From Paenibacillus donghaensis (GTDB lineage: Bacteria; Bacillota; Bacilli; Paenibacillales; Paenibacillaceae), in assembly GCF_002192415.1 (NCBI RefSeq), contig NZ_CP021780.1, forward strand, positions 868,001 to 932,000: a stretch of 64,000 nucleotides of DNA. The letters run 5' to 3'. Shown one piece after another: positions 34,389 through 63,487 of the stretch. Made by a program: the position numbers and the translations under genes. The notes under the pieces are model-generated. The model saw nothing but the letters and a program-made list of their open reading frames with translations, did no database searches and was not told where the DNA came from. The first letter of the stretch is position 1. Each line of letters opens with the position of its first letter.

Positions 34389-35422
34389 ATGAAAGAGAAA
34401 TTGGAAGCATTGAAGCTTGAGGCGCTGTCCAAGCTGCAGGAAGTAACAGACGCACAGGTGCTGAATGATCTGCGTGTGAAATATTTGGGCAAAAAAGGCG
34501 AGCTGACCGAGGTGCTGCGCGGCATGGGAGGACTCAGTGCCGAGGAGCGTCCATTGATCGGGCAAGTAGCCAATAACGTCCGCAGCGCGATTGAAGAAGT
34601 GATTGCCGCGAAGCAGGAAGCCTACCAGCAGCAGGAAACCCAGAACCGGCTGGCTGCGGAGAAGGTGGATGTCACCCTGCCGGGCCGCCGTATGCTGCAG
34701 GGGGTATTCATCCACTGAGCCGTGTGGTGGAAGAGATTGAGGATGTCTTCATCGGCATGGGCTACCAGGTAGCCGAAGGTCCTGAGGTAGAGACGGATTA
34801 TTACAACTTCGAAGCGCTGAATCTGCCGAAGAACCATCCGGCCCGTGATATGCAGGATTCCTTCTACTTGACAGAGGATCTGCTGATGCGTACCCAGACC
34901 TCCGGCGTGCAGATCCGTACGATGCAGTCGATGAACGGACAGGTGCCGGTAAAAGTAATCTGTCCGGGTAAAGTGTTCCGCCGCGATGACGATGATGCGA
35001 CCCACTCCTTCCAGTTCCACCAGATTGAAGGGCTGGTTGTCGGACGCAATATCCGCATGAGCGACCTGAAGGGCACGCTGGAGCAGTTCGTGCAGGAAAT
35101 GTTCGGGCCAGGCACCGGCATCCGCCTGCGTCCAAGCTTCTTCCCGTTCACCGAGCCAAGCGTAGAGGTGGATGTCAGCTGCTTCAAATGCGGCGGGGCA
35201 GGCTGCAGACTGTGCAAGCAGAGCGGCTGGCTGGAGATTCTCGGCGCCGGGATGGTGCATCCGAATGTGCTGGCCATAGGCGGATACGATCCGACTGAGT
35301 TCAGCGGTTTCGCTTTCGGGATGGGTGTGGAGCGGATTGCGATGCTGAAATACGGCATCGATGATATCCGTTACTTCTATAACAATGACATGAGTTTCGT
35401 GAAGCAGTTCAAGGGCGTTTAG
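34389..35422 (+). CDS. pheS: Phenylalanine--tRNA ligase alpha subunit (frameshifted as given)
   Basis: An N-terminal coiled coil ([18 protein letters not shown]) leads to a class II catalytic core with [48 protein letters not shown] and [16 protein letters not shown]. The frame breaks at 34700-34704: five Gs are present where six are needed to read [10 protein letters not shown]. Adding one G gives 1035 nt and 344 residues, exactly the family length. The gene is essential, so a sequencing undercall is the simplest explanation. Start ATG 34389; T-box controlled; pheT follows 32 nt later. Confidence 0.93.
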
Positions 35423-35454
35423 CATTACATCTGAACTAAAGGAAGTGAGCGGAA

Positions 35455-37905
35455 ATGAAAGTATCAACCGGATGGTTGGCTGATTATATATCGCTGGACG
35501 GAGTTACCGCTGAGGAGCTGGCAGACAAAATCACCGCGGCCGGCATTGAGATTGACGGTGTGGAGCGCCGCAATAAGGGGATCTCCGGGATTGTCACCGG
35601 CTATGTGAAGAGCAAGGAGAAACACCCGGACGCAGACAAGCTGAACGTCTGTATCGTTGACGTCGGTCAGGGCGAGGACCTGCAGATTGTCTGCGGGGCC
35701 AAGAATGTGGATGCAGGCCAGAAGGTTCCTGTAGCCATGGTGGGCGCCAAGCTGCCGGGCCTGGATATCAAGAAGGCCAAGCTGCGCGGCGTATTGTCCC
35801 AGGGTATGATCTGCTCCGCCAAGGAGCTGGGCCTGAACGACAAGCTGCTGCCCAAAGAGCTGCAGGAAGGTATTCTGGTGCTGCCAGAAGCGACCGAAAT
35901 CGGCCAGGACATCACCCAGGTGCTGGGCCTGAACGACGAGGTGCTGGAGTTTGACCTTACGCCCAACCGCTCGGATTGCCTGAGCATGATTGGTGCTGCT
36001 TATGAGGTTAGCGCCATTCTGGGCCGTGACGTCAAGCTGCCTGATCCGCAGGAGGATATCGTGGAAGTAAGCGGGGCGGATTCCGCCGCAGCGCATATCT
36101 CCGTGAAGATTGAGGATGAGGCCCATTGCGCCCACTATACAGCGCGTTATATTTCCGGTGTGAAGCTTGGCGCAGCCCCATTGTGGATGCAGAACCGGCT
36201 GATGGCCGCCGGAGTGCGCCCGATCAACAATATCGTCGATATCACCAATTATGTCATGCTGGAGTTCGGCCAGCCGCTGCATGCCTTTGACGCAGACCGC
36301 GTGGAAGGTGGCGTGCTGGGCGTAAGGCTGGCGCATAAAGGCGAAGTTCTGACTACGCTGGACGGCCAGGAGCGCAAGCTGGAGCCGCAGATGCTGGTGA
36401 TCGCGGACGCTGAGAAGGCTGTAGCCTTGGCGGGTGTCATGGGCGGGCTTGCTACAGAGGTTACGTCAGATACCGTGAACATCCTGCTGGAATCGGCCCG
36501 CTTCGACGGGGGAACGGTCCGCAAAACCTCGCGCCAGCTCGGCCTGCGTTCCGAAGCCTCGCTGCGCTTCGAGAAGGAGGTTGACCCGCATGCCGTTATT
36601 CCGGCATTGAACCGGGCGGCGGCGCTGATTGCGCATTATGCCAGCGGAACGGTGCATGAAGGAATTATGGAAGCGGCCAGCGGCAATGTGGAAGAGAAGC
36701 TTATCACCCTCTCGCTGGAGAAGCTGAACCGCTACCTCGGCACCCAGCTGTCATTGCTGGAGGTGAAGACGTTGTTCACCCGGCTGCATTTCAAATATGG
36801 CGATGCTGGCGAAGGACTGCTGGAAGTGCAGGTACCTGCACGGCGCGGCGATATCAGCTATGATGTGGACCTGATTGAGGAGATTGCCCGTCTCTATGGA
36901 TATGACAATATCCCTACGACGCTGATTGAAGGACCGACCACGCCGGGTTCTCTCACCTGGCCGCAGCGGATACGCCGCCAGCTGCGCAGATTGCTTGCGC
37001 ATGGCGGATATCAGGAAGTCTTGGGATACTCTTTCATACAGCCTGCGCAGAGCGGCTTGTTCCCTGCCTTCGCCGGAGAAGGCCGCACGGTCAAGCTGGC
37101 TATGCCGATGAGCGAGGAGCGCAGTGTGTTGCGCACCAGCCTGCTTCCGCAGCTGCTGGATATCGCCACGTACAATACGAACCGCCGGCAGAGCGATCTG
37201 GCCTTGTTCGAAATCGGCAATGTGTTCTATTCCGATGAAGAAGCCTTGACCCGCCAGCCGCGTGAGCTGCCGGTGCTGAGTCTGCTGCTCAGCGGCAGTC
37301 TGACCGCTAAGCAATGGAATGTCCCGGTCCAGCCGGTCGATTTCTTTGACCTGAAGGGTGCGCTGGAGACGGTTTTTGCCCATCTGGGGCTGGAAGGCCG
37401 GATCGTATATGAAGGGGACAGTCCGGAAGGCTTCCATCCGGGACGTTCTGCCTCTCTGTACCTGACGGGAGAGCAAGGGCGCATCAAGCTGGGTTCGATG
37501 GGACAGATTCATCCGGAGCTGCAGCGCCAGTATGATCTAGTGGACACCTACGCGGCCGAGATTGCCCTACAGCCGCTCTATGAGGCGGCAGGCAGCCGTT
37601 TGCAGCACAAGGAGCTGGCACGGTTCCCGGGTATGGAGCGCGATATCGCCGTGGTGGTAGATTCAGCTGTACCGGCGGGTGAGCTGCTGTCCAGCATTCG
37701 TGAGCACGGCGGCAGTCTGCTGCAATCGGTGCAGATCTTCGATGTCTACACCGGCGGCAAGCTGGAGGGCGGGAAGAAGAGCATCGCTATCTCATTGCTC
37801 TATCGCCACAGTGACCATACCTTGACTGACGAGGAGGTTTCCGAGGTGCATGGTCAGGTATTGACGGCACTTCAGCAAACTTTTGGAGCAGAATTAAGAA
37901 AGTAG
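35455..37905 (+). CDS. pheT: Phenylalanine--tRNA ligase beta subunit
   Basis: 816 residues, intact. Domains in order: tRNA-binding OB fold (about 40-150, KEKHPDADKLNVC), B3/B4 editing domain (about 205-400), B5 domain (about 405-480), catalytic-like core (about 490-690) and C-terminal FDX-ACB anticodon-binding domain (about 720-816, FPGMERDIAVVVD, KSIAISLLYRHSDHTLTDEE). It pairs with PheS as an (alpha-beta)2 enzyme. Start ATG 35455 follows AAGGAAGTGAG. Confidence 0.98.
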   Translation: MKVSTGWLADYISLDGVTAEELADKITAAGIEIDGVERRNKGISGIVTGYVKSKEKHPDADKLNVCIVDVGQGEDLQIVCGAKNVDAGQKVPVAMVGAKLPGLDIKKAKLRGVLSQGMICSAKELGLNDKLLPKELQEGILVLPEATEIGQDITQVLGLNDEVLEFDLTPNRSDCLSMIGAAYEVSAILGRDVKLPDPQEDIVEVSGADSAAAHISVKIEDEAHCAHYTARYISGVKLGAAPLWMQNRLMAAGVRPINNIVDITNYVMLEFGQPLHAFDADRVEGGVLGVRLAHKGEVLTTLDGQERKLEPQMLVIADAEKAVALAGVMGGLATEVTSDTVNILLESARFDGGTVRKTSRQLGLRSEASLRFEKEVDPHAVIPALNRAAALIAHYASGTVHEGIMEAASGNVEEKLITLSLEKLNRYLGTQLSLLEVKTLFTRLHFKYGDAGEGLLEVQVPARRGDISYDVDLIEEIARLYGYDNIPTTLIEGPTTPGSLTWPQRIRRQLRRLLAHGGYQEVLGYSFIQPAQSGLFPAFAGEGRTVKLAMPMSEERSVLRTSLLPQLLDIATYNTNRRQSDLALFEIGNVFYSDEEALTRQPRELPVLSLLLSGSLTAKQWNVPVQPVDFFDLKGALETVFAHLGLEGRIVYEGDSPEGFHPGRSASLYLTGEQGRIKLGSMGQIHPELQRQYDLVDTYAAEIALQPLYEAAGSRLQHKELARFPGMERDIAVVVDSAVPAGELLSSIREHGGSLLQSVQIFDVYTGGKLEGGKKSIAISLLYRHSDHTLTDEEVSEVHGQVLTALQQTFGAELRK

Positions 37906-37920
37906 CAGGAATTGTGTAAA

Positions 37921-37967
37921 GCCGCAGCGAATCCATTTAGAAACATAGATTCGCAGCGGTTTTTTTA
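37921..37967 (+). terminator. Rho-independent terminator of pheST
   Basis: CCGCAGCGAATC pairs with GATTCGCAGCGG, followed by TTTTTTT. Confidence 0.92.
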
Positions 37968-37969
37968 AA

Positions 37970-38025
37970 TATAAGAATTTATATGTTTTCACGTTATCAA
38001 TTATCCTTCTATTTTTTGCTAAAGC
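37970..38025 (+). repeat. TTATCCTTCTATTT repeat, truncated copy
   Basis: AATATAAGAATTTATATGTT...ATTATCCTTCTATTTTTTGC matches the elements at 41504-41610 (inverse), 42830-42950 and 42950-43053, but lacks the GAAACGG hairpin. Its last bases form the -35 of the zapA promoter. Confidence 0.7.
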
Positions 38026-38045
38026 ATTAAGATTAAAGCTACAAT
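38016..38045 (+). promoter_or_regulatory. Probable zapA promoter
   Basis: TTGCTA (38016-38021), 18 nt, TACAAT (38040-38045), 54 nt before the start. The -35 lies inside the truncated TTATCCTTCTATTT repeat. Confidence 0.6.
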
Positions 38046-38098
38046 AGGAGCAGAGAAACCAACTTAGAATCCGCACACATACAAAGGAGGGCACAACT

Positions 38099-40288
38099 GT
38101 GGCTATGGACCGGACACGTGTCGCCGTGGAGATATACGGAACTTCCTATAATCTTGTCGGAAGCAGCACTGAATATATGAAGCAAGTTGCCCGTTTTGTA
38201 GACGAGCACATGCGTACCATTTCCAAATCCCATTCCAGACTGGACACGCCGCGTATTGCGGTGCTGACAGCTGTACATATGGCCGAGCAGGCCATTCAGG
38301 TTCAGGACTTCAAGAAAGAGCTTAATATGCTGACCGGAGAACGCAGCGAGCTTAGGGTTGAAATGGCCCGCCAGCTGGAAGTGCAGCAGGAGCGCGAGGA
38401 GGAGTACGAGCAGCTTGAAGCAGCTGCGAAGGAAGAAGCCGCACGGCTGATCGCCGCCGCTGAGGAGCAGCGCGTACGTCATCTGGAGCAGCAGGAGCAG
38501 GAGCGCAAGCTGCATGCCGAGCAGCTGCGGGAAGCGGAGCAGCTGGCAGGAGCGGCCCGCCAGGAGCTGGCCGACCAGCTGGCCCAGCGCGAGCGTGAGC
38601 TGCAGGAGCAGCGGGCCGCTCATGAGGCTGAGCAGGCAACGCTGCGCCAGGAGGGAAGCGAGGCGCTGCAGGCGCGCGAGCAGGAGATCCAGGCGCTGCG
38701 GGCCGAGTTCGAAGCGCAGCAGGCTGCCGCGCGCGAGAGTGCCCAGCAGGAGCTGGCGAATGCCGAAGCCCTGCATCTGCAGCAGCTGGAGGAGCTGAAG
38801 GCGGCGCACCAGCTGGAGCAGGAGAGCGAGCGCGAGCGGATGAGCCGGGAGAAGGCGGAGGCGCTGGCGGCCGTGCAGGAGTCCCTCGGCGGAGAACTTG
38901 CCGAGACGCGGACAACCTTGGGTCAGCAGCTTGCCGATACCAAGGAGAGCCTTGGCAACGAGCTGGCAGGCACCAAGGAGCGGCTGGGCAAGGAGCTGGA
39001 GGCTACGCGGCAGAAGCTTGGCAAGGAGCTCGAGGACACCAAGCAGAGCCTGGGCCAGGCTCTGAACACCGAGCGCGAAGCGCTGCAGCGGGAGCTGGCG
39101 AAGAACAAGGAGCTGCGGCAATCGCAGGGAACGCAGGAGCACCGCCACAAGCAGCAGCTTCAGGAGCTGGAGAAGCAGCTGGCAGAGCTGCGCGGGGGCA
39201 CAGGGCAGCTGCAGTCGCGGCTGCGCGCCGCTGAAGCGAATATCAAGGCCGAGCGGGATTCCCGCCAGAGCCTGCTTGAGCAGTACGAATCCGTGGTCAA
39301 GCGCGAGGAACAGCTGGAAGAGGAGCTTCGCTCCGCTACTGAGCTGGGCACGCTGCTGAGTGAGGAATTGGAAGAGCTGCGTGCCAGCTATGACGCATCC
39401 CAGAGTGAAGCGGCTGCGCTGCACAGCTCGCTGGAGCAGACCGGCGGCACCTTGAGCCGGGTTCAGGAAGAGCTGAGCGGCACGGCAGCAGAGGCGAAGA
39501 AATGGCAGGCGCTGGCAGACAAGCGTATGGAAGAGATCAGCGAGCTGGAGATGAGTCTTCTGGAGACGGAAGAGAAGTCCTTGACGCTGCAGAGCGAGAT
39601 CGAGACACTTCGCGGCCAAGCCGACGGATTAGTACAGCAGCTGGACCGTGAAGCTGCGCTGCGCAGCCAGGCGGAGTCCGAGAGTGCAGCCTTGCGCGGA
39701 CAGCAGGAAACGGCTGTTAAGAATCTGGCGGCACTTCAGGTGCGCTATGAGGAAATGATCGCGCAGTATGATGAGGTTCTGCAGGAAGGCGAACGTCTGC
39801 AGGAGAGATACAGCCTGCTGGAGGCCGAGAGCGAGGAAACGGCGCGGCGGCTCGATGAGCTGTCGGAAGCCAGCCGCGAAGCTGCGTCCGCTGCGGTGGA
39901 GTATCAGGAGGTGCTGAAGGAAGCGGAGCAGACCGGCGCGGCCTGGAAGCACAGATTCGAGGAGCTGCAGCAGCGGCAGCAGCAGTGGAACGATACGGAA
40001 GAGCAGCTGCGTGAGGAGATTGAGCTGTGGCAGCAGGAAGCGGACGAAGCTGAAACCAAGCGGGTTGCGCTGGAGCGCGAGCGCAGCGAGGCTGTTCAGC
40101 AGCTGGACGAGGTCGGCGAGCATTACGAGCTGGCCCAAGGCCAGCTGCGGCTGCTGCAGGCCCAGTCTGAGCTGAACAAGGATCAGCTGGACAAGCTGGC
40201 GGAGAGTCACCGCGCGTTGCAGGCGGAATATGCCAAGTTGCAGAATGAATATAATGAATGGATTCAGCTGATCGAACAGGACAGCTGA
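38099..40288 (+). CDS. zapA: ZapA domain fused to a ~640-residue coiled coil
   Basis: 729 residues. Residues 1-85 are a ZapA domain (RVAVEIYGTSYNLVGSSTEY, VDEHM, IAVLTAVHMAEQ), which bundles FtsZ. The rest is almost pure Glu/Gln/Arg/Leu coiled coil with no membrane segment. Around residues 263-325 it contains 11-residue repeats (TKESLGNELAG, TKERLGKELEA, TRQKLGKELED). Ordinary ZapA is about 85-110 residues. Start GTG 38099 lies 8 nt after AAAGGAGG. Position after pheT and before mutS2 is the usual zapA location. Likely a cytoplasmic division or scaffold protein. Confidence 0.88.
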   Translation: MAMDRTRVAVEIYGTSYNLVGSSTEYMKQVARFVDEHMRTISKSHSRLDTPRIAVLTAVHMAEQAIQVQDFKKELNMLTGERSELRVEMARQLEVQQEREEEYEQLEAAAKEEAARLIAAAEEQRVRHLEQQEQERKLHAEQLREAEQLAGAARQELADQLAQRERELQEQRAAHEAEQATLRQEGSEALQAREQEIQALRAEFEAQQAAARESAQQELANAEALHLQQLEELKAAHQLEQESERERMSREKAEALAAVQESLGGELAETRTTLGQQLADTKESLGNELAGTKERLGKELEATRQKLGKELEDTKQSLGQALNTEREALQRELAKNKELRQSQGTQEHRHKQQLQELEKQLAELRGGTGQLQSRLRAAEANIKAERDSRQSLLEQYESVVKREEQLEEELRSATELGTLLSEELEELRASYDASQSEAAALHSSLEQTGGTLSRVQEELSGTAAEAKKWQALADKRMEEISELEMSLLETEEKSLTLQSEIETLRGQADGLVQQLDREAALRSQAESESAALRGQQETAVKNLAALQVRYEEMIAQYDEVLQEGERLQERYSLLEAESEETARRLDELSEASREAASAAVEYQEVLKEAEQTGAAWKHRFEELQQRQQQWNDTEEQLREEIELWQQEADEAETKRVALERERSEAVQQLDEVGEHYELAQGQLRLLQAQSELNKDQLDKLAESHRALQAEYAKLQNEYNEWIQLIEQDS

Positions 40289-40305
40289 ATGGCGGATGCA
40301 TGAAG

Positions 40306-40352
40306 AAGGGCAGACCTCAAGCCGGCAATGGCTTGCGGGTCTGCCCCTTTTG
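40306..40352 (+). terminator. Rho-independent terminator of zapA
   Basis: AAGGGCAGACC..AAGCC pairs with GGCTT..GGGTCTGCCC, followed by CTTTT. Confidence 0.9.
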
Positions 40353-40460
40353 CTGTATATGATGTGTTAACATGTTACTTTGGAACGTTCGGAGTCAATA
40401 GATGCTAAAGAGAAACTGCACCTAATTTCAGCTGAATCGTTAGCTGTGAGGCAAATAAAT

Positions 40461-40872
40461 GCGAAAATGGTTACTACTAAGACCTCCAGCCTTCTCTCTA
40501 TAGGTTGAAACATTCAGTCGAAAACCCGCCGTCCCTATCCGCAATTTCAACTAATCTTGGGTAATTCCGACTGCTGACGCTAGAACTACACAGACTTAGC
40601 TCCAAAATTAGGGAGCCGAACAAATAGATGCGATAACGCATCTATTTAGCCGTTTTTTTCCGTTTTGGAGGAAATAAGTGCGAATACGCATCTATTTTGG
40701 AAGTTTGAGCGTTCCTGGAGTGATTTACTCGAAATTAGTTGCAGATTTGCACTTATTCGGCTGTTAATGGAACCTTCGGCTGAATTTAGTTGCAGTTTCG
40801 CATCTAATTATTCCGAAGGTTCCATGGCAACACTCTAAATCCTTACTGGACCTAAGTAGTAACCACTTTCGC
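40461..40872. repeat. 412-bp element with GTTACTACTTAG-type inverted ends
   Basis: The left end is GCGAAAATGGTTACTACT.AAGACC. The right end (40848-40872) read inversely is GCGAAAGTGGTTACTACT then TAGGTCC. The interior is non-coding and full of shorter echoes: GATGCGATAACGCATC palindrome, TTAGTTGCAGATTTGCACTT, TTAGTTGCAGTTTCGCATCT. The same ends and phrases recur at 61937-63680 and 63842-64000, and the ends also near 25820 and 26285. No gene is seen in 40300-40940. Confidence 0.7.
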
Positions 40873-40939
40873 AACTAAATCGGCGGATTGGACTTAAGAA
40901 ACGATCGGATGATCCGTTTGTGATATCAGGACAACTGAA

Positions 40940-41350
40940 TTAGTCCACGATGAAATTGGCCTGCATCCCGCTGTGGCCGGAGCCGCACATAATCGAGCAG
41001 CTGATCTCGAAGGTGCCGGCTTCTTCCGGTACGATCACCTGTGAGCTTTTTTTGCCGTCCAGATGCAGCTCGAGGCCGGGGGCCAGAATACCGTGGTTGC
41101 CGCTTTCGTTCTTGAAGATGATTTTGACGGGAACACCCTTCTTTAGATGATATTCCTGCTGGTCGAAGCTGTAGTTGCTGGCGGTAATCACCAGTTCCTC
41201 ATCCGCCGTTATTCCGTTGTCTGAGTTACCTTTGCCGTTGCCGCTGTTCCCCAGGTTCTCATGATTGCTGCCACAGGCTGTAAGAAGGGCGGTTCCGAGC
41301 AGCAGCATAAGAAATGCCGATTTCTTCAGGGTAATCCTCTCCTTAACCAT
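40940..41350 (-). CDS. Cupredoxin lipoprotein with CuA-type motif
   Basis: Up to 136 residues. A lipoprotein signal (KKSAFLMLLLGTALLTAC) puts the mature protein on the outer membrane face. A Gly/Asn-rich linker and a cupredoxin beta barrel follow. The C-terminal CSIMCGSGHSGM has the CxxxCGxGHxxM spacing of the binuclear CuA site in cytochrome oxidase subunit II and nitrous-oxide reductase. A role in copper delivery or electron transfer is likely. Start: ATG 41350 has no ribosome site. AAGGAGAGG lies inside the frame, 6 nt before a CTG at 41329, which would give a textbook lipoprotein start, so CTG initiation is possible. Confidence 0.82.
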   Translation of the reverse strand: MVKERITLKKSAFLMLLLGTALLTACGSNHENLGNSGNGKGNSDNGITADEELVITASNYSFDQQEYHLKKGVPVKIIFKNESGNHGILAPGLELHLDGKKSSQVIVPEEAGTFEISCSIMCGSGHSGMQANFIVD

Positions 41351-41382
41351 GAATTTATGTAGACATCATAGCCTAAAATAAA

Positions 41383-41396
41383 TGTAAACGCTCTGA
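41383..41396 (-). promoter_or_regulatory. cre-like site upstream of the cupredoxin gene
   Basis: TGTAAACGCTCTGA matches the CcpA consensus TGWNANCGNTNWCA at 13 of 14 positions, 33 bp from the upstream end of the cupredoxin frame. Confidence 0.3.
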
Positions 41397-41503
41397 GAAA
41401 TTTTGAAAATTTCGGGAGTGGACAAAAAAGTTCGAATTATGTCGAAAATTGTGAAAATATGATGCATTAATAGTTAAAATTCATTATAATAAAAGCTATA
41501 AAA

Positions 41504-41610
41504 CGCCAAGTAGAAACGGCTTTGCCGTCCTCTGTAAGCAAACTAATCCGATTCTGCAAGAAATAGAAGGATAATTTATGGATTGAACATATAAATTCTT
41601 ATATTTGTAA
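41504..41610 (-). repeat. TTATCCTTCTATTT hairpin repeat, inverse copy
   Basis: Read inversely it has AAATATAAGAATTTATATGT, AAATTATCCTTCTATTTC, TTGCAGAATCGG and GCCGTTTCTACT, the same order as the copies at 42830-43053. It forms most of the leader of the GGDEF gene. Confidence 0.75.
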
Positions 41611-41617
41611 AAAGTAG

Positions 41618-42759
41618 GGGATACACATTAACATCAACAATGATGAATGGAACACGGAGCATTGGCATCGCAAGATTCTTAACGGCTACTGGGTAATCGT
41701 CGGTTTTATGATGATTGCGGAGCTGCTGTTTGTACTAAGTGCGGATATGCTGAATGTGAAAACCCCGGTCAATTCTGATTCCTGGCACCTTTTTATGGCC
41801 TGCAATGTACTGATCGTGTTCTGTCTGGTCAGCGCTGAGTTCTGGCTGCGTTCACAGCTAAAGCATCAGAAGCAGGCGGTGGCAACCACTTCATTTGTGG
41901 TTTCCTATTTGATGTATTTTGTGATTGAGCCGTTTGTGGATGGCGCGCAAATGACGCTGATGATGCCCATTATGGTGGCTCTGGTCTACTTTGACCGCAA
42001 GATGCTCTACAGTTTGGGCACGATCAGCGTGATCATTTATGCGGGAATCTATTTCGTGCTGGAAAGAGTGTTTCTTAAAAAGCCGCTGCTGGAGTTCCTG
42101 ATGGTGGAATGTGTATACCTTGTTTTTGTCCTGATGTCTCACGCTGTTATTGTCCGTGCCCGCGAGGCCCGCGACCATATGGAGCAATTAACTAAATCGG
42201 AGCAGTCTCTGATGGTTGAACGTGCGATCTCCGACAAACTGCTGAAGATTGATGCATTGACTGGCCTCTACAATCATAAAACCTTCCATGAGTACCTGGA
42301 TTCGCTGCTGGAGCAATGTGAGAGCAATGGTCTTCGGCTGCAGCTGGCGCTGTTTGACATCGATAACTTCAAGCGTGTGAATGATACGTATGGGCATTGG
42401 GTGGGGGATCTGGTGCTGAAAGAGGTTGCATCCAAGGTTATGGGGATGATTGGGCTGAACGATTTTGCCGCCCGGTACGGGGCGAGGAGTTCGCGGTTAT
42501 CTTCACGGACATCAGTCTTCCGGAAGCCTATGAGGCGGTGGAAGCGATGCGCGGCCAAATGGCGCTAATGGCGCATCCTTATGCCGGAGACAAGCCGATC
42601 ACGGTGAGTGTCGGATTATGTGATTATGAAAGCGGGAATGGCAAGGAGCTGCTGTTCCGCAAGACGGACAATGCCTTGTACACCGCTAAAAGAAACGGCA
42701 AAAATGCAGTGGTCACCGCTTCTGTAAGCAAGGATGACGAAATTTTCTCTTACGCCTGA
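41618..42759 (+). CDS. Membrane diguanylate cyclase (frameshifted as given)
   Basis: Five or six membrane helices (about 20-170) precede a GGDEF domain (LLKIDALTGLYNHKTFHEYL, FDIDNFKRVNDTYGH, then GGEEF). The frame breaks at 42479-42482: four Gs are present where five would read ARYGGEEFAVIF. With one G added, the C-terminal part to 42759 (KPITVSVGL, DNALYTAKRNGKNAV) joins in frame and the catalytic GGEEF loop is intact. The true start is unclear: the frame opens after TAG 41615, GTAGGGG precedes an ATT at 41627, and the first ATG is 41708. Probably a c-di-GMP synthase. Confidence 0.78.
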
Positions 42760-42779
42760 CCCCTTATATTGATAAAGGC

Positions 42780-42812
42780 TGCGCCATTCCTGTAAGAATG
42801 GCGCAGCCTTTT
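42780..42812 (+). terminator. Rho-independent terminator
   Basis: GGCTGCGCCATTC pairs with GAATGGCGCAGCC, followed by TTTTTG. Confidence 0.92.
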
Positions 42813-42829
42813 TGTGTGAATAGAAGAAA

Positions 42830-43053
42830 GTATATGTTTCACAATATCCTTTATCCTTCTATTTCTCGCTGAAACGGTACCTGAAAGCGATACGCAGTAT
42901 CGCTGCTTCGGAAGCGTAGGCTACCTAAAACGGACGATACCGTTTCTACTCGAAATATAAGAAATTATATGTTCCACACTATAATTCATCCTTCTATTTT
43001 TCGCAGAAACGGATGCCGCCTCTTGGAGAGGACGGCGAAGCCGTTTCTTCTTA
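42830..43053 (+). repeat. TTATCCTTCTATTT hairpin repeat, two tandem copies
   Basis: Each copy has TATATGTTYCACA, then ATCCTTCTATTT, then CGC(T/A)GAAACGG, a variable hairpin and CCGTTTCT. The first variable hairpin contains GCGATACGC/GCGTAGGC and AGCGATAC..GTATCGCT pairings. The second has GCCGCCTCT/AGAGGACGGC. They separate the GGDEF gene from the convergent holin-like gene. Confidence 0.8.
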
Positions 43054-43084
43054 GTGCGGGAAGCACCCTTGCCAAGAAAGGCAC

Positions 43085-45978: not shown

Positions 45979-46010
45979 CAAAAGAAGCCCGGCTGAAAAA
46001 GGAGGAACGT

Positions 46011-46430: not shown

Positions 46431-46439
46431 GAGGAAATC

Positions 46440-51977: not shown

Positions 51978-51988
51978 ACGAACGCAGA

Positions 51989-54547: not shown

Positions 54548-54595
54548 AGGTCCTACAGACAACAGATAACGTATGAACAAATAAGGAGAATAAAC

Positions 54596-54949: not shown

Positions 54950-55000
54950 CGGACTGCTTGGAGTTTATATGGAATCATATCATTTATTGTATTTAAAAAA

Positions 55001-55032
55001 GACACCCGCGGCTTACAGGCTGCGGGTGTCTC
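55001..55032. terminator. Terminator between convergent genes
   Basis: AAAAAAGACACCCGC pairs with GCGGGTGTCTCT around GGCTTACAGGCT, with a T-rich right flank. It separates the FMN-binding lipoprotein from the minus-strand oxidase. Confidence 0.75.
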
Positions 55033-55074
55033 TCTATGTTGTAGCGTAATAGCTGCACACTGTTGTGCCCGTGC

Positions 55075-56325
55075 TTATACCTTGGACGGAAGCGGTTCGC
55101 TCCCGTCCGGATTAGGCTTCGCTGTGCGCGTCAGCGAGAACAGCTCCAGCTCCGGGCGGTGAATGCCGGCCAGTGTGTCAGCCAGCAGCTCGGCTGCGAT
55201 CATGCTGAAGACTGTACCGTTGCCGCCATAACCTTCAATGAAGTAGCAATGCGGATACTTAGGATGCGGGCCGATATACGGCAACCCGTCGCGGGTGGAG
55301 CCGAAGACTGAACCCCAGGCGAACTCGACTTCGGTTCCCTTGATCTCGGGAAACAAGGCTTCCAGCTCTTCCAGTAGCCGCTGGCTCTGGGACAGGACGC
55401 GGATATCGCGGCGCTCCGGGTCGGTCAGCGCCTCATCCTTGCCTCCGGCGATCATGCATCCGTCCTCCGTTGTGCGGAAAAACAGATACGGGCGGGCGGT
55501 TTCCCAGAGCAGACTCCGCTCATGCCACTTCGGCATCTGCTTAAGCGGACGCGTCTTGATGGCATAGGTATTGATCAGTTCGGCTCCCCGGTCTTTTTTC
55601 ATCTGCTGTGTTTCATACCCCAGGGCAAAAATCACGTTCTTCGCAAAGATAAGGCCGCCCGCCGTGTGGCAAACTACACCATCTTCGTTGTAGTCATAAT
55701 GCAGTGCTTCAGTATGCTCAAACACCCGCACGCCCTGCTTGGCGGCTCTGTCAATCAGGCTGCACACCATGCGGAAGGGATTGGTCTCCGCATCTCCACG
55801 GGAGAACAAGGCCGCCGGTTTGGAGAAGGAATAATGTGCAGCAATCTGATCCTCCTCCCAGAACTCCGTGTCGAAGCCGTTATCGACCAGATTCTTATAC
55901 TCCTCACGCAGAGCTGGAACGTCTGCCGGGACACTGGCATACAGCAGAGTGCTGCGTGGGATGATCAGCGGGTCAATATCGAGCTTGCCCGGCAGCTCCA
56001 GAATAGTATTCATACTTTTCTGGCACAATTGGTAAAAAAGAAGTCCGTTCGTTCTTCCGAAGGTATTCATGCAAGCGGTCAGCGACTTGTCATTGGTAAT
56101 TTGCAGCAGTCCAGTATTGGCATGGGTGCTTCCGGTGCCGACCGCCCTTTTATCAATCAGGACCATGTCTGCCCCTTCAAGTGACATCCGGTAGGCAGCC
56201 ATTGCCCCGCCCATGCCGCCGCCTACGATCAGATAATCGCAGTGAATATCTTCCTGCAGAACCGGATAAACCGGAGGATTAGTTAAAGTATTTTCCCAGG
56301 GCAGCTGTCCGCTGTTTAATCTCAT
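55075..56325 (-). CDS. FAD-dependent oxidoreductase, DAO family
   Basis: 416 residues. The Rossmann fingerprint DYLIVGGGMGGAMAAYRMSL and VLIDKRAVGTGSTHANTGLL identify the D-amino-acid/glycine/glycerol-3-phosphate oxidase fold. GSVFGSTRDGLPYIGPHPKY then YGGNGTVFSMIAAELLAD close the FAD site. No signal peptide, so cytoplasmic. Start ATG 56325 follows AAGGAGAG; an upstream in-frame ATG (56349) lies before this site. Substrate not identifiable. Confidence 0.87.
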   Translation of the reverse strand: MRLNSGQLPWENTLTNPPVYPVLQEDIHCDYLIVGGGMGGAMAAYRMSLEGADMVLIDKRAVGTGSTHANTGLLQITNDKSLTACMNTFGRTNGLLFYQLCQKSMNTILELPGKLDIDPLIIPRSTLLYASVPADVPALREEYKNLVDNGFDTEFWEEDQIAAHYSFSKPAALFSRGDAETNPFRMVCSLIDRAAKQGVRVFEHTEALHYDYNEDGVVCHTAGGLIFAKNVIFALGYETQQMKKDRGAELINTYAIKTRPLKQMPKWHERSLLWETARPYLFFRTTEDGCMIAGGKDEALTDPERRDIRVLSQSQRLLEELEALFPEIKGTEVEFAWGSVFGSTRDGLPYIGPHPKYPHCYFIEGYGGNGTVFSMIAAELLADTLAGIHRPELELFSLTRTAKPNPDGSEPLPSKV

Positions 56326-56481
56326 GGTTATCTCTCCTTCATATCCCATCCGGATTTAGTATTTACGGCCTTAAGCTGTCTCATGCGAATATTATTCCGC
56401 AGTCCATGCCTGTACATAATCGGGGGAGGTGAACGGCATACTAAGCCCTGCTTGAACATTTATAAGGAGGGATTACCCAAC

Positions 56482-56715
56482 ATGCAATCCACGCAAATGC
56501 AGGGTCTTAGCGGCAAAGAGCTGGAGTATATCGCAGACTCGATCTCCAATGAGGATCTGCTGATCAAGCAGCTGGCTGCCACCGTAGGAAGTACCCAGAA
56601 TTCAGACGTGCGCCAAATCTGCATGCAGCATATCCAGAGCCATACACAGCATATGGAATCACTTACCCAGCTTCTCCAGCAGCATCAGCAATATGCGCCT
56701 ACCTCGCCACAATAA
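56482..56715 (+). CDS. Small helical protein, CotF-associated
   Basis: 77 residues, Gln/His-rich and helical (GLSGKELEYIADSISNEDLL, QHIQSHTQHMESLTQLLQQH). It resembles the short partner often found before CotF-like spore coat genes. Start ATG 56482 follows AAGGAGG. The next gene begins 25 nt later, so the two are one unit. Probably sporulation-related by neighbourhood. Confidence 0.7.
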   Translation: MQSTQMQGLSGKELEYIADSISNEDLLIKQLAATVGSTQNSDVRQICMQHIQSHTQHMESLTQLLQQHQQYAPTSPQ

Positions 56716-56740
56716 TCGCAACCTATAAGGAGGTTATTCA

Positions 56741-57133
56741 ATGAATGGAGCAAACGGTTCACAATTTATGCCGGATGAGGATTTGTTAAATACTGTATTG
56801 GCCGACTTGAAACGGACGGTGCGGGAATATACCACAGCTGCTACAGAATCGAATTGTCCGAAGGTCCGCCAAGCCTTTAACGATCTGACCATGGATACGC
56901 TACGTCTTCAGGGTGATCTGTACACGAATATGTCGCAGATGAATATGTACCCGGCTCCGTCCCAGGCGCTGCGCCAGGATGTGGACAAGCAGATACAGAC
57001 GGCGCAGCAGACTCAGCAGAAATGCCAGCAGTTTGTCCAGCAGAAGACAAGCGGCGCCGGCAGCTATGCCCAGGACCCGAACGTCCTCCAGCATCAAGCC
57101 AATGTACAGGCTCATAACCCTAGTTATATGTAA
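56741..57133 (+). CDS. Spore coat protein, CotF family
   Basis: 130 residues. A Coat_F helical domain (DEDLLNTVLADLKRTVREYT, VRQAFNDLTMDTLRLQGDLY) is followed by a Gln-rich, Tyr-containing tail (DPNVLQHQANVQAHNPSYM). CotF-like proteins form part of the inner or outer spore coat. Start ATG 56741 follows AAGGAGG. A perfect hairpin follows at 57149. Confidence 0.82.
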   Translation: MNGANGSQFMPDEDLLNTVLADLKRTVREYTTAATESNCPKVRQAFNDLTMDTLRLQGDLYTNMSQMNMYPAPSQALRQDVDKQIQTAQQTQQKCQQFVQQKTSGAGSYAQDPNVLQHQANVQAHNPSYM

Positions 57134-57148
57134 CCCTACGGCTTAAAA

Positions 57149-57183
57149 GGTGAAGCACAGGAAGTATTTCCTGTGCTTCACCG
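57149..57183. terminator. Perfect 15-bp hairpin after the coat gene
   Basis: GGTGAAGCACAGGAA pairs perfectly with TTCCTGTGCTTCACC around GTATT. No U tract follows, but the 57210 hairpin has one. Confidence 0.6.
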
Positions 57184-57209
57184 GCTTGGTATCCGGGCTA
57201 TAATCTCAG

Positions 57210-57243
57210 GCTGACTCCGCAGATGACGGAGTCAGTTTTTTGT
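57210..57243 (+). terminator. Rho-independent terminator
   Basis: CTGACTCCG pairs with CGGAGTCAG, followed by TTTTTTG. Confidence 0.88.
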
Positions 57244-57355
57244 TTTGTTTGCAGAGATACCTTTTTCATGTCATATTAATAATAAATCTTTTCGCGGGGG
57301 CTTCCGGGCTAAAGCTAGCCGGGTATGCCATAGGCGAACAAGCGGGAGGGAAGGC

Positions 57356-57856
57356 ATGAACGCAATGAATGATTTGAAGAGGAAAGTGCTGGAACTGCTC
57401 AAGGAGGATGCGAGAAGCTCTACGGATCTGATGGCAACCCTGCTTGGGGCGGATGAGGCTGACGTGAAGTCTGTGATTGAGCAGATGGAGAAGGACCACG
57501 TGATTGTTAAATATGCCACAGTGGTGAATTGGGATAAAGTTGACGATGAGCGCGTGACGGCTCTGATTGAAGTGCAGATTACACCGGAACGCGGCCGCGG
57601 CTTCGAGGGGATTGCGGAACGTATCTATCTGTATCCACAGGTGAAATCCGTATATCTGATGTCCGGTGCGTACGACCTGCTGGTTGAAGTGGAAGGGCGC
57701 AATCTGCGTGAGGTCGCGAATTTCGTATCCGAGAAGCTGTCGCCTATCGACGCCGTACTTTCCACCAAAACAAACTTTACGCTCAAAAAATACAAACAGG
57801 ACGGGATCATCTTTGAAGAGCACGAGGAAGACAACCGTCTGATGATCTCTCCATAA
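57356..57856 (+). CDS. alaR: Lrp/AsnC-family regulator, AlaR-like
   Basis: 166 residues. An N-terminal HTH (LKRKVLELLKEDARSSTDLM, DEADVKSVIEQMEKDHVIVK) and a C-terminal RAM domain (TALIEVQITPERGRGFEGIA, YLMSGAYDLLVEVEGRNLRE). Start ATG 57356 follows GGGAGGG. The aminotransferase starts 13 nt after the stop, the same order as B. subtilis alaR (yugG)-alaT (yugH), so it probably controls that gene in response to alanine. Confidence 0.85.
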   Translation: MNAMNDLKRKVLELLKEDARSSTDLMATLLGADEADVKSVIEQMEKDHVIVKYATVVNWDKVDDERVTALIEVQITPERGRGFEGIAERIYLYPQVKSVYLMSGAYDLLVEVEGRNLREVANFVSEKLSPIDAVLSTKTNFTLKKYKQDGIIFEEHEEDNRLMISP

Positions 57857-57869
57857 AGGAAGCATCCAT

Positions 57870-59090
57870 ATGATTACTAACAAAACGCAGCTAAACGGTG
57901 ATACCCATAAATCGATGAATTCCTATCTGGCCCCGCTGGTGCAGCAGATTCAGCCTTCGGGGATCCGCAAGTTTTTTGATCTTGCTGCAGGCAGCAAGGA
58001 TATTATCTCACTCGGGGTGGGCGAACCGGATTTCAAAACACCTTGGCATGTGAGAGAAGCCTGTGTCTATTCCCTGGAAAAAGGATTCACCGGCTATACC
58101 TCCAATGCAGGCATGCCGGAGCTTCGGGAGGGCATCGCCCAGTATTTGCACACCCGCTTCGCCGTAGAATATAATCCCGCCAACCAGATTATCGCTACGG
58201 TTGGCGGCAGCGAGGCCATTGATCTTGCGCTCCGCGCGCTGATCTCACCGGGAGATGAAATTCTGATCCCTGAGCCTTGCTATATCTCCTATTCTCCAAT
58301 TACGGCGATTGGCGGGGGCATACCGGTCGGCATTGAAACATTCGGTGAGAATCACTTCAAGCTGACAGCAGCAGACCTGGAAGCGAAGATTACGCCGCGT
58401 TCCAAGATTCTGATCCTCTGCTACCCGAGTAATCCGACAGGCGCGATCATGAGCCGCGAGGACTGGGAGCCGATTGCCAAGGTGGTGGAGAAGCATGATC
58501 TGATCGTAATTTCAGATGAAATCTATGCCGAGCTGACCTATGGCAGCAATCATGTCAGCTTCGCCTCCCTGCCGGGGATGATTGACCGCACCATTCTGGT
58601 CAGCGGCTTCTCCAAAGCCTTCGCCATGACCGGATGGCGCATGGGTTATGCCTGCGGCCACCCGGATCTGATCTCTGCGATGCTGAAGATCCACCAATAT
58701 ACCGTAATGTGTGCCCCATCGATGGGCCAGGTGGCTGCGCTGGAGGCGCTGACCAACGGGATGGAAGAGAAAGACCGGATGGCGGATTCCTACAACCAGC
58801 GCCGCCGCCTGATCGTCAAAGGCCTGCGGGATGCGGGACTGGACTGCCATGAGCCGCAGGGCGCATTTTATGCTTTTCCGAGCATCCAGCGGACCGGACT
58901 AACCTCCGACCAATTCGCCCAGCGGCTGCTGCTGGAGTATAAGGTGGCGGCGGTTCCGGGCAGTGTGTTCGGGCTTGGGGGCGAAGGGTATCTGCGCTGC
59001 TCCTATGCAACCTCTGTGGCGCAGCTGAACGAGGCGGTTGAGCGGATCGGTGCATTCGTCACACAATTAGAATCTGAACGTACACAATAG
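57870..59090 (+). CDS. alaT: PLP-dependent aminotransferase class I, AlaT-like
   Basis: 406 residues. Fold type I aminotransferase: GVGEPDFKTP, VGGSEAIDLALRAL, YPSNPTGAI, DEIYAELTY and the PLP-Lys in SGFSKAFAMTGWRMGY. The C-terminal Arg is in LRCSYATS. Pairing with an Lrp regulator points to the B. subtilis alanine transaminase AlaT; aspartate or aromatic aminotransferase activity cannot be excluded. Start ATG 57870 follows AAAGGAAGC. Confidence 0.87.
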   Translation: MITNKTQLNGDTHKSMNSYLAPLVQQIQPSGIRKFFDLAAGSKDIISLGVGEPDFKTPWHVREACVYSLEKGFTGYTSNAGMPELREGIAQYLHTRFAVEYNPANQIIATVGGSEAIDLALRALISPGDEILIPEPCYISYSPITAIGGGIPVGIETFGENHFKLTAADLEAKITPRSKILILCYPSNPTGAIMSREDWEPIAKVVEKHDLIVISDEIYAELTYGSNHVSFASLPGMIDRTILVSGFSKAFAMTGWRMGYACGHPDLISAMLKIHQYTVMCAPSMGQVAALEALTNGMEEKDRMADSYNQRRRLIVKGLRDAGLDCHEPQGAFYAFPSIQRTGLTSDQFAQRLLLEYKVAAVPGSVFGLGGEGYLRCSYATSVAQLNEAVERIGAFVTQLESERTQ

Positions 59091-59157
59091 AGAAAATAGC
59101 ACTATGGCATATATTCAACTCTTATGGTATTATTTTACTTCAGAAGTAAATTTCAAG

Positions 59158-59560
59158 TGAAGAAGCACAGCTAACAAAACTTAAGTGTATGCTTTCGAAG
59201 TGAGTTTTGTACGACGAATATCAGGAAGCATAGCTAACAAAACTTAAGTGTATGCTTTCGAAGTGAGTTTTGTACGACGAATATCAGGAAGCATAGCTAA
59301 CAAAACTTAAGTGTATGCTTTCGAAGTGAGTTTTGTACGACGAATATCAGGAAGCATAGCTAACAAAACTTAAGTGTATGCTTTCGAAGTGAGTTTTGTA
59401 CGACGAATATCAGGAAGCATAGCTAACAAAACTTAAGTGTATGCTTTCGAAGTGAGTTTTGTACGACGAATATCAGGAAGCATAGCTAACAAAACTTAAG
59501 TGTATGCTTTCGAAGTGAGTTTTGTACGACGAATATTACAGGATGCACAGCTAACAAAAC
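59158..59560. repeat. 63-bp tandem repeat array (six units plus a partial)
   Basis: Six units of 63 bp and a partial seventh, nearly identical except for edge units. Each holds AAGCATA...TATGCTT and ACAAAACT...AGTTTTGT in the interleaved order A1-B1-A2-B2, plus the small palindromes CTTAAG and TTCGAA. The last partial unit runs straight into the ribosome site of the Spo0E-like gene (59565-59570). No variable spacers, so it is not CRISPR. Confidence 0.95.
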
Positions 59561-59577
59561 TTTTAGGAGGGATGATT

Positions 59578-59829
59578 GTGCTCAGCGCCGATTATTATTT
59601 ACCTTCCTATGGCGGAAACAGTTTCCCGGGAAACGGGAAGCGGCCTGTCAAAGGTGAACCTTCTGAACGCTGTCTCACATTGGAAGACGAAATTCGGATA
59701 CTCCGCAGCAGGATGGAACAGTTGTTTACTCAGGAGAACTCTTTCACCTCAGACAGTGTGATAGAAATCAGTATTCTACTTGATCTAAAGATAAATGAAT
59801 ACATGAAGGGGCGCACGGTCGGCAAATAG
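59578..59829 (+). CDS. Spo0E-like sporulation phosphatase
   Basis: 83 residues. The C-terminal half is the Spo0E fold: LEDEIRILRSRMEQLFTQEN, then DSVIEISILLDLKINEYMK, where SILLD takes the place of the SQELD signature that contacts Spo0A-P. Such proteins remove phosphate from Spo0A and delay sporulation. The N-terminal ~30 residues are unusual (YYLPSYGGNSFPGNGK). Start GTG 59578 lies 7 nt after TAGGAGG; ATG 59572 is too close. The leader is the 63-bp repeat array. Confidence 0.8.
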   Translation: MLSADYYLPSYGGNSFPGNGKRPVKGEPSERCLTLEDEIRILRSRMEQLFTQENSFTSDSVIEISILLDLKINEYMKGRTVGK

Positions 59830-59852
59830 CCACTGGCCACCCGGACACTGAT

Positions 59853-59877
59853 GCGAGGGCCTGCGGGCCCTCTTTTT
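59853..59877 (+). terminator. Rho-independent terminator
   Basis: GAGGGCC pairs with GGCCCTC around TGCG, followed by TTTTTG. Confidence 0.88.
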
Positions 59878-60026
59878 GCGTTGAAGAGTATGGAGCAGAT
59901 TGAATAACTTAGGCCTTCATTGCCTAATCCTCCAAATCATAATAAAGTATATAGACAGTTTCATCTTAAGTTCATCTTGGATAGGTTTATTGAGAACATA
60001 TGAGATAGTTGAAGGAGGAGAAAATT

Positions 60027-60590
60027 ATGGCGATATATACAAGAACGGGCGATCAAGGACAAACCTCGGTGATTGGCGGCCGGGTGGGGAAGGATGATGT
60101 GCGGGTAGAGGCCTACGGGACGATCGATGAGCTGAACTGTTTCGTGGGGCAGGCGCGGAGTCTGATGGAGGAGGAGCAGTATGCTGATCTGCGCGAGCAG
60201 CTGCTGGAGATCCAGCATGAGCTGTTTGATTGCGGCTCTGATCTGGCTTTTGTGAAGCTTAGTGAGGGCAAATATAAGGTGAAGGCTGAAATGGCGGAGC
60301 GGCTGGAATCCTGGATTGATAGTCTGCAGGCGGAGAATCCGCAGCTGGAACGGTTTATTCTGCCGGGGGGGAGCCAGCTGTCCTCGGTGGTGCATGTCTG
60401 CCGCACCGTCTGCCGCCGCGCGGAACGGCGTGCGGTGACACTGGGACGTAGTAGCGACATCAATCCCCAAGCAGTGATTTATCTTAACCGGCTGTCGGAT
60501 TATTTCTTCGCGCTGGCCCGGACGGCCAATACAAGAGCAGGCATTGCTGACGTGGAATATGTGCGCAGCAAAAAGGTGTTCCGCAACTGA
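60027..60590 (+). CDS. Cob(I)alamin adenosyltransferase, PduO type
   Basis: 187 residues. The N-terminal ATP loop IYTRTGDQGQTSVIGGRV and the helix YGTIDELNCFVGQAR are PduO-type signatures. The C-terminal CRRAERRAV and NRLSDYFFALAR complete the ATP and corrin sites. It makes adenosylcobalamin from cob(I)alamin and ATP. Start ATG 60027 follows AAGGAGGAG. Its TGA overlaps the ATG of the pseudouridine synthase. Confidence 0.94.
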   Translation: MAIYTRTGDQGQTSVIGGRVGKDDVRVEAYGTIDELNCFVGQARSLMEEEQYADLREQLLEIQHELFDCGSDLAFVKLSEGKYKVKAEMAERLESWIDSLQAENPQLERFILPGGSQLSSVVHVCRTVCRRAERRAVTLGRSSDINPQAVIYLNRLSDYFFALARTANTRAGIADVEYVRSKKVFRN

Positions 60591-61597
60591 TGGCAGACTA
60601 CTATTCACCTATTGCTTATATAGTACCGCCTCTGGAGGATGGCTGGCAGCTGAAGACCATTCTTCAGAAGAGGATGGAGGTATCGCGTAAGCTGCTGTCC
60701 CGGCTCAAGCAAACAGAGCAGGGCATTATGCTGAACGGGAAACGCGTCTATATCAGTGTCCGCGTTGCCGCGGGAGATACGGTCGAGATCCGGATGGAAC
60801 AAGAGGTCTCGGAGGATATTTTGCCGCAGCCGATTCCGTTTGCAATTCTGTATGAGGATGAACAGCTGCTGGTGGTCAACAAGGAGGCCGGGATTATCGT
60901 GCATCCCACGCATGGGCATTATACCGATACCCTTGCCAATGGCGTGGTCCACTATTGGGCCATGCGCGGGGAACGCTTCCGCTTCCGCCCGGTGCATCGA
61001 CTGGACCAGGAGACCTCCGGCGTGCTGGTCATCGCCAAGAATCCCTATGCGCATCAGCATATCTCCGAGCAGATGATTGCCGGAACGGTGGACAAGCGCT
61101 ACGCCGCGTTGGTCCACGGCGTACCTGCGCAGCCGCGCGGCGATATCGACGGTCCGATCGACCGCGATCCTGCGGAGCCGCACCGGCGCATCGTTACGCC
61201 GGACGGATACCCGTCCTTGACCCGGTATGAGGTCAAGGAGATCTATTCCGGCGGCTCCAGGGTTGAACTGAAGCTGGAGAGCGGACGCACCCACCAGATT
61301 CGGGTGCACATGACCTCGATCGGCTGCCCGCTGATCGGGGATGGCATGTACCGGCACAGTCTGTATAGCGAGACTGTGCCCGGCGGCGGGCCTGCTGAGG
61401 CCGCACAGGCCGGACCGCTGGCGCAGGTGGCCGCACTCGACGCGGCAATGCCGCGCCAGGCGCTGCACGCCGTGCGGCTGACGTTCAGGCATCCCGTGCT
61501 GCTGCACGAGATGACCTTCGAGGCGCCGCTGCCGCCGGACATGGCAGCGCTGGAGCAGCTGCTGGCAGAGGGCGGCAGCGGCACGGATGCGATGTGA
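60590..61597 (+). CDS. RluA/RluD-family pseudouridine synthase
   Basis: 335 residues. An N-terminal S4-like RNA-binding region (SRKLLSRLKQTEQGIMLNGK) precedes the catalytic domain, with the nucleophile in HRLDQETSGVLVIAK and ESGRTHQIRVHMTSIGCPLI. It isomerises uridines in rRNA or tRNA; the exact site cannot be told. The ATG shares one base with the upstream stop (TGATG), indicating translational coupling. The C-terminal third is richer in GC and Ala/Pro. Confidence 0.9.
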   Translation: MADYYSPIAYIVPPLEDGWQLKTILQKRMEVSRKLLSRLKQTEQGIMLNGKRVYISVRVAAGDTVEIRMEQEVSEDILPQPIPFAILYEDEQLLVVNKEAGIIVHPTHGHYTDTLANGVVHYWAMRGERFRFRPVHRLDQETSGVLVIAKNPYAHQHISEQMIAGTVDKRYAALVHGVPAQPRGDIDGPIDRDPAEPHRRIVTPDGYPSLTRYEVKEIYSGGSRVELKLESGRTHQIRVHMTSIGCPLIGDGMYRHSLYSETVPGGGPAEAAQAGPLAQVAALDAAMPRQALHAVRLTFRHPVLLHEMTFEAPLPPDMAALEQLLAEGGSGTDAM

Positions 61598-61797
61598 ATT
61601 TACGGGAGCAATCCCCGTGGATTCACTGCGCCAGGTCTGTTTTTTTATGCTGGCGCCCTGGCCCATACGGCATATCGGCGCTTGCAGCTCGGGTTAATCT
61701 GAGCAGGGTGACGGTGAGAGGGCTATGTATAGGGAAATTTGTGCCTTGAAATTTGGCTCCAGCAGTTGAAGGTATGTTCTTATAAGGAAAAAGTACG

Positions 61798-62040
61798 CGG
61801 AATATTACTGTTTAGATCCGAGCGAGGATTTAGAGTGTTGTCCAGGAAGGTTTGGCGCGAATAGATACTAGAGTAGTTACTATGTAGCTTCTCAGTGAGG
61901 ATTTATGTTACCCTGGAACGTTTGGCGTAAATAGATGCGAAAGTGGTTACTACTTAGGACCCCAGCCATCCCCAAGTAGGTTTGCGCCTTCGGAGTAGTA
62001 CAACAGAGGTGGCTATGGGGAAAAACTACCGTTAATACCT
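61798..62040. repeat. GTTACTACTTAG-type repeat DNA, left part
   Basis: Contains two degenerate copies of GATTTAGAGTGTTG.CC.GG followed by AGGTTTGGCG.AA.TAGAT, and GCGAAAGTGGTTACTACTTA (61937-61956). The matching inverse end is at 63657-63677, so the IS256 element at 62049 was inserted into a pre-existing element of roughly 300 bp. No gene is seen in 61598-62048. Confidence 0.65.
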
Positions 62041-62048
62041 GGCTCATG

Positions 62049-63487
62049 GATGGCGTAAAATAGTTTGTGTAAGGACCGGGGAGTCTAGTAAACGACAAAA
62101 AAGTAGGGTATCCTTGGGATTGCGAAAGTCACCAAGAAAAGGAGCCCTACTCAATGACCAGTATACAACAAAACCCGTTCCATGATCTACTCGAAAATAG
62201 CATCCAAAGTTTTCTGAAAGAAAAGATTGAACTCATGCTCCGCGAAGAAATCAAAAATTATCTCGGTGTCGAACATCCGGAAGACTCCAATACTCGCAAC
62301 GGATATTACACCCGCACCTGGAAAACACGCCACGGCCTGATCCCCGACCTGAACGTCCCACGGGATCGGCAGGGTCAATTCCAGACGGAGCTCTTTGAGC
62401 CCTACCAGCGCCGGGAGGCGTGGCTGGAAGACACCGTCATCCATATGTATAAAGGCGGCATGAGCACCCGGGATATCGCTTCGTTTATCGAAAAAATGTT
62501 CGGGACCTCGTACTCGCCAACCACCGTGAGCAACATCACCGGCACGGTGCTGGAAGATGTGGCTGCCTGGCAAAATCGTCCGCTCTCTAAGCGTTACTCG
62601 GTCATCTATCTGGATGGCATGTACGTCAAACTGAAGCGCCAAACCGTGGCCAGTGAAGTCATCTACATCGCGATGGGGATCGACGAAGACGGGCACCGGG
62701 AAATTCTCAGCTTCGCTATTGGCGGCAAGGAGAGCGCGTATGGCTGGCGGGAAGTGCTGCAAGACCTGCACCGCAGAGGCGTGCATGAGGTGCTGCTGGG
62801 CGTCTTTGACGGGCTGGCCGGGCTGGAGGAAGCCTTCAAGGAAACCTACCCCAAAGCCGATGTCCAGCGCTGTGTGACCCACAAGATGCGCAACACGCTG
62901 CCCAAAATTCGGGATACCCACAAGACCGAGATGGTCGGCGATTTGAAGACCATTTACACCGCACCGGATAAGGATGTGGCACTTGCCAACTTTGATGTGG
63001 TGCTGAAGAAATGGGGCAAAATCTATCCCAAGGAACTAGAGTCCTGGGGGGACAGCTGGATGTGTTGCTACGCTTTTACGACTACCCACCCCAGATCTGG
63101 TACGCCATTTACACGTCCAACCCGATCGAGCGAACCAACAAAGAAATCCGCAAACGGCTGCGTCCCATGAACAGTTTGACCAATATGGATGCCGCCGAAA
63201 AGATTGTCTATTTGGAAGCGATTGGGTACAACGAGAGATGGAGCCGACGTGTCCTGCGGGGGTTTGGGGACCCCCAGACGAAAGCCGCTTTGAGTAAAAA
63301 GTTTGCGGAAAAGTATCCCCCAGCCCAAGACAGCTAAGAACAAAACCGACGGCAGACGTAACTGGATATGAAAGGAAATTTTCGCAGGGGGGATCCCCCC
63401 TGACCCTTTGAATACCATTCATATCCATTGTCCCAATGGATATCCTACAACCCTTAAAAATAATTACACAAACTTCTTGACGCTACC
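62049..63487 (+). mobile_element. Complete IS256-family insertion sequence
   Basis: Length 1439 bp. Inverted ends: left GATGGCGTAAAATAGTTTGT then GTAA; right, read inversely, GGTAGCGTCAAGAAGTTTGT then GTAA, alike at 18 of 24 positions. The flanks are the exact 8-bp duplication GGCTCATG (62041-62048 and 63488-63495). Size, single transposase gene and 8-bp duplication all fit IS256. Confidence 0.93.
62154..63337 (+). CDS. IS256-family transposase (frameshifted as given)
   Basis: DDE transposase of the mutator/IS256 group: NYLGVEHPEDSNTRNGYYTR, YLDGMYVKLKR (first Asp), VLLGVFDGLAGLEEAFKETY (second Asp), CVTHKMRN. The frame breaks at 63046-63051: six Gs are present where seven would read ELESWGGQLDVLLRFYDYPP. 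The second part (WYAIYTSNPIERTNKEIRKR) then runs to 63337. With one G added the protein is 394 residues, normal for the family. Start ATG 62154 follows AAAAGGAG. Confidence 0.92.

Follow-up and report, generated by a model that had tools for sequence, protein, structure and literature searches.

Programmed -1 ribosomal frameshifting is defined by an in-frame X XXY YYZ heptamer, and insertion sequences can use frameshifting of this type. Broken frames may also originate in the assembly itself. In one long-read assembly, most false deletions were associated with homopolymers of 2-8 bases, chiefly 4-5, with A/T runs affected about twice as often as G/C runs and a small share consisting of a non-repeated base, according to an excerpt of that study (PMC12007338). 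An extract from a second source describes the systematic errors of nanopore sequencing as mainly homopolymer indels that shift the frame (PMC8011154). For the phase-variable poly-G/C tracts of Campylobacter, an excerpt of a third study gives a cut-off of at least 7 bases and a peak at 9-10 (PMC6321876).

The window analysed here is a stretch of 64,000 nucleotides from Paenibacillus donghaensis, positions 868,001-932,000 on one 8,542,333-base contig (genome 8.54 Mb). Three neighbouring genes in this window, namely pheS, a GGDEF-domain gene and an IS256-family transposase gene, are each one letter short (Table 1), which likely reflects slips in the assembly and not poly-G biology. Residual single-base deletions in the consensus, at G-rich contexts, are the most likely cause of the breaks, a reading to which we assign a probability of about 0.75. 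The three G runs (G5, G4 and G6) read as given in the preliminary description of this DNA. The window also contains a tandem array at 59162-59562 (63-base unit, 6.3 copies, 98% matches) and another at 26200-26282 (9-base unit, 9.3 copies).

Table 1. Features of the three broken genes, in window positions.
Feature	Position	Strand	Basis
T-box leader, 5' of pheS	34025..34326	+	Rfam RF00230, 89.8 bits, E 2.3e-20
pheS N-terminal piece (Phe_tRNA-synt_N), 109 aa	34389..34718	+	PF02912 E 2.4e-25
G5 tract at pheS frame break	34700..34704	+	sequence and alignment with relatives
pheS C-terminal piece (tRNA-synt_2d), 232 aa	34724..35422	+	PF01409 E 3.5e-99; TIGR00468 E 2.4e-95
GGDEF-domain gene, N piece, 286 aa	41708..42568	+	PF00990 profile 3-80 of 161
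GGDEF-domain gene, C piece, 120 aa	42397..42759	+	PF00990 profile 79-160
G4 tract at GGDEF frame break, within GGEEF motif codons	42479..42482	+	sequence and relatives
IS256-family transposase, N piece, 338 aa	62154..63170	+	NF033543 E 9.6e-97
IS256-family transposase, C piece, 108 aa	63011..63337	+	NF033543 E 2e-14
G6 tract adjoining IS256 frame break	63046..63051	+	copies and homologues compared

The two pieces of pheS lie in different frames and meet at the G5 run, with the N-terminal piece terminating at a wrong-frame stop. A second copy of the gene was sought across the 8.54 Mb genome and none was found, the two pieces in the window being the sole matches. The deficit amounts to one base: when 96 genomes from the genus were searched, 24 exceeded a strict threshold, including the window's own genome, and the matched stretch has one more base in each of the 23 others. 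The frame was further compared in 80 named loci, three of which were set aside since the match begins at a later residue (their frames are open too), and a single frame is kept across the site in all 77 comparable loci. Most of the pheS-nearest named relatives carry the label Paenibacillus, the closest of all being Bacillus sp. FJAT-27264, and the best pheS matches listed in the protein search are 92% identical; among the best 120 matches listed per homologue search, none came from a second strain of the species. The match to RF00230 upstream of the gene scores slightly below the Rfam gathering score of 93 for this family, and the Rfam scan of the window gave no matches at or above the gathering score.

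The halves of pheS are 82% and 87-90% identical to their orthologues. As pheS is an essential gene and both halves are well conserved, it is not an old pseudogene, and the lack of a second copy, together with the intact frame in all comparable relatives, makes a consensus error much the best reading of the break, firmly so as far as sequence comparison can carry it. What is found is a single-copy, essential gene broken here and intact in the relatives compared, the pattern that marks a residual consensus error, and pheS is probably intact in the living cell. In practice, automatic annotation may call the gene a pseudogene or two genes.

The GGDEF gene likewise consists of two pieces in different frames, meeting at the G4 run, and the family match of the C piece begins at residue 27. 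The genome search gave 21 GGDEF domains, of which 20 are in one frame and the window's alone is split, and at 100% identity the protein search returned this genome's own protein alone among the matches listed. The break is a probable consensus deletion. Elsewhere in the genome, at 3,997,801-4,000,800, the 5' part of another GGDEF gene, one of the 20, seems to be missing for a different reason, and this gene lies near a stretch of repetitive reading frames.

It had been proposed that each of the three genes lacks one G within its run. The loss of one base at each run or beside it is borne out, but for neither pheS nor GGDEF is this base shown to be a G. The relatives' codon at the pheS site is GGC in 24, GGA in 21, GGT in 17 and GGG in 15 (n = 77), and at the GGDEF site GGC in 10, GGG in 2 and GGA in 1 (n = 13); for Gly-Gly codon pairs in a sampled 0.8 Mb of this genome, those with GGT second begin with GGG in 14/172 cases, and those with GGC second in 46/457. 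A base lost from between G's and an undercalled run give the same sequence, and since runs lose bases more readily, a homopolymer undercall, with the lost base being a G of the run, is possible at both sites.

The same comparisons bear on phase variation, the biological alternative raised in the preliminary description, where slippage at G tracts would switch the genes on and off. The breaks are indeed located at G runs, but at 4-6 bases (G5, G4 and G6) the tracts are under the Campylobacter cut-off of at least 7 given in the excerpt cited above (PMC6321876), and they are not kept in relatives: a G run of at least 6 occurs at the pheS site in 1/80, and the tract at the GGDEF site is interrupted in 11/13. 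Moreover, an essential gene such as pheS would not tolerate being switched off. Phase variation is thus extremely unlikely.

To place the breaks in context, frame breaks were scanned in 0.8 Mb of this genome (G000) in comparison with two relatives (G085 and G117), and the accepted breaks were judged by hand, with DNA alignments where listed. Breaks were accepted in 4/298 conserved loci here and in 3/349 and 1/353 in the relatives, i.e. 4/298 vs 4/702 (Fisher p = 0.25). The scan has less than full sensitivity in all three genomes, as shown by versions with a tighter gap filter, which missed the GGDEF break. All four breaks accepted here are one-base deficits, residing in pheS, the GGDEF gene, the IS256 transposase and a pullulanase-like gene at 1,053,437. 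The last lies at a G6 run (L170, about 13,435) in an S-layer-anchored gene with PUD, X25, CBM48, alpha-amylase and SLH domains. A single reference genome stands behind each of the pullulanase-like break, the G085 break and the break at 1,783,307 of G117, and the accepted G117 break at 1,732,688 is a two-base shift. Three of seven clusters were dropped in G000, two of them (870,823 and 1,283,686) because no sense gene clearly shifts by one base there and the third (902,278) owing to an over-long reference reading frame spanning the T-box leader. In the relatives, 2/3 clusters were dropped in G085 and 8/11 in G117, the latter on grounds of gene starts, over-long or antisense reading frames, and intergenic or low-identity joins. 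Earlier advice to treat frame calls elsewhere in the assembly with care draws little support from these rates, or from the 20/21 GGDEF domains in one frame.

With respect to the kind of site, 4/4 breaks here are at G runs of 4-6 vs 0/4 at G/C runs of at least 4 in the relatives (Fisher p = 0.029), in a table set by hand. A random single-base coding deletion in the 0.8-Mb sample would touch a G/C run of at least 4 in 2.5% of cases, or in 3.3% with one base off, and the association with runs is therefore not due to chance, but three of the four cases here had been picked for their G runs; the fourth, in the pullulanase-like gene, was found blind to runs and gives p of about 0.03. Three of the four breaks fall within 28.4 kb (p = 0.019, permutation over 362 conserved positions, uncorrected for the prior choice of the cluster). 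G/C runs of at least 6 number 115 per 0.8 Mb here, compared with 106 and 108 in the two relatives, and this equal frequency argues against a wholesale undercalling of G runs. Of the earlier interpretation, sequence error holds up as the preferred reading, with the firmest case in pheS, but the longer G/C runs are not depleted.

The IS256 transposase is composed of two family pieces in different frames, meeting at or beside the G6 run; the N piece departs from the family frame at about 63052, and the scan puts the break at 63053. There are four near-full copies of the element in the genome, of which three, in the window (0.93 Mb) and at 4.54 and 8.30 Mb, have an identical reading at the tract, and the fourth, at 7.96 Mb, keeps the frame at the tract and carries a 19-base deletion elsewhere. 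In the 7.96 Mb copy and in homologues from two other genomes, the extra base is found beyond the A that follows the G6 run, i.e. outside the run. A G6 where G7 fits, as previously put forward, is hence not the simplest reading, and judging by the aligned copies it is probably wrong that this element lost one G from its run. A 49-base interspersed repeat (window 62000-62048), with 11 further full-length genome matches at 96% identity or above, abuts the left end of the element, and a different IS256-family element at 1,894,139-1,895,108 is broken in several places.

Among the three copies sharing the break, the N part has 15 differing sites, read by eye from the alignment, 14 of which are third codon positions (p = 2e-6 vs one third), and the C part has 7 differences, also read by eye, with 4 at third positions (p = 0.17); the third-position share of the two parts compares at p = 0.077. 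The near-confinement of N-part differences to third positions indicates that selection acted after the copies split, making an old, dead element a poor fit. A sequence-dependent miscall shared by the copies would explain this selection, and gene conversion could do so too. In the C part, the 4/7 third positions make a real break with relaxed selection on that part possible. No intact copy exists among the five larger IS256-family elements in the genome, and in two of them the breaks lie elsewhere, which makes real decay of the family possible as well. A literature search for the positions of IS256 catalytic residues found none. For the transposase, a consensus deletion is a possible cause, held less strongly than for the other two genes.

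The retained selection on the N part of three copies that share a break is also what might be expected from programmed recoding, where the ribosome or RNA polymerase would slip on the G run so that the broken gene still yields the full protein, and a G run is present at every break. Nevertheless, the canonical in-frame X XXY YYZ layout is found at 0/4 sites (codons read by eye), each of the compared orthologues occupies a single frame, and the sister copy at 7.96 Mb is in frame at the tract, and recoding is very unlikely to account for the breaks. That the IS256 copies are truly broken, with full transposase made by slippage at the G6 run, is in our view highly doubtful; if true, a single-frame transposase family would have turned to recoding in this lineage, and the selection on the N part would be explained.

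In the reading we prefer, the breaks would be residual single-base deletions in the assembled consensus that arise at G-rich contexts, comprising G runs of 4-6 plus the bases beside them, and would be of the kind left by long-read assemblies short of full polishing. We infer a sequencing or consensus cause rather than mutation, and most of the other broken genes are probably intact in the living cell as well. Counted against this are the break rate, which is like that of the relatives, and the finding of no breaks at A/T runs in the scan of 0.8 Mb, even though such runs are longer and commoner (301 A/T runs of length 6-8 vs 51 G/C runs of 6-7 in the sampled coding DNA) and were the more often affected in the assembly of PMC12007338. 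The genome also shows real decay in the form of the 5'-truncated GGDEF gene, the IS copy with the 19-base deletion and the multiply broken IS256-family element. A mixed case can be envisaged where pheS is an assembly error, and the GGDEF, transposase and pullulanase-like genes are real, recent frameshift pseudogenes. These three genes are probably dispensable, the lack of an intact element among the five larger IS256-family members suggests that the family may be decaying, and the overall break rate is similar to that of the relatives. However, the four breaks share the same type of site, and third-position bias persisted in the N part of the IS copies after they split, and we find the mixed case unlikely. 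Consensus deletions at G-rich sites would make this, in all likelihood, an ordinary matter of sequence quality. The analysis illustrates what to test before homopolymers are blamed: the base present in relatives, near-identical copies in the genome itself and break counts in sister genomes.

The three systems outlined at the start resemble the present breaks to different extents. As in the poly-G phase-variable genes of Campylobacter, Neisseria and Helicobacter, the frame depends on a coding G tract, but the tracts here are only 4-6 bases long and unconserved, and one of the genes is essential. Programmed -1 frameshifting in insertion sequences has in common with the present case a transposase in two overlapping frames, here found in three copies, whereas the IS256 relatives compared are single-frame, the sites here lack a canonical slippery heptamer, and a sister copy is in frame at the tract. 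Residual homopolymer-deletion errors differ from the present case in the low rate seen here, in the restriction to G-rich sites so far and in one deficit outside its run; they share with it the loss of a single base that divides a conserved gene at a short homopolymer or next to one, with relatives intact, and such an error could recur in near-identical copies.
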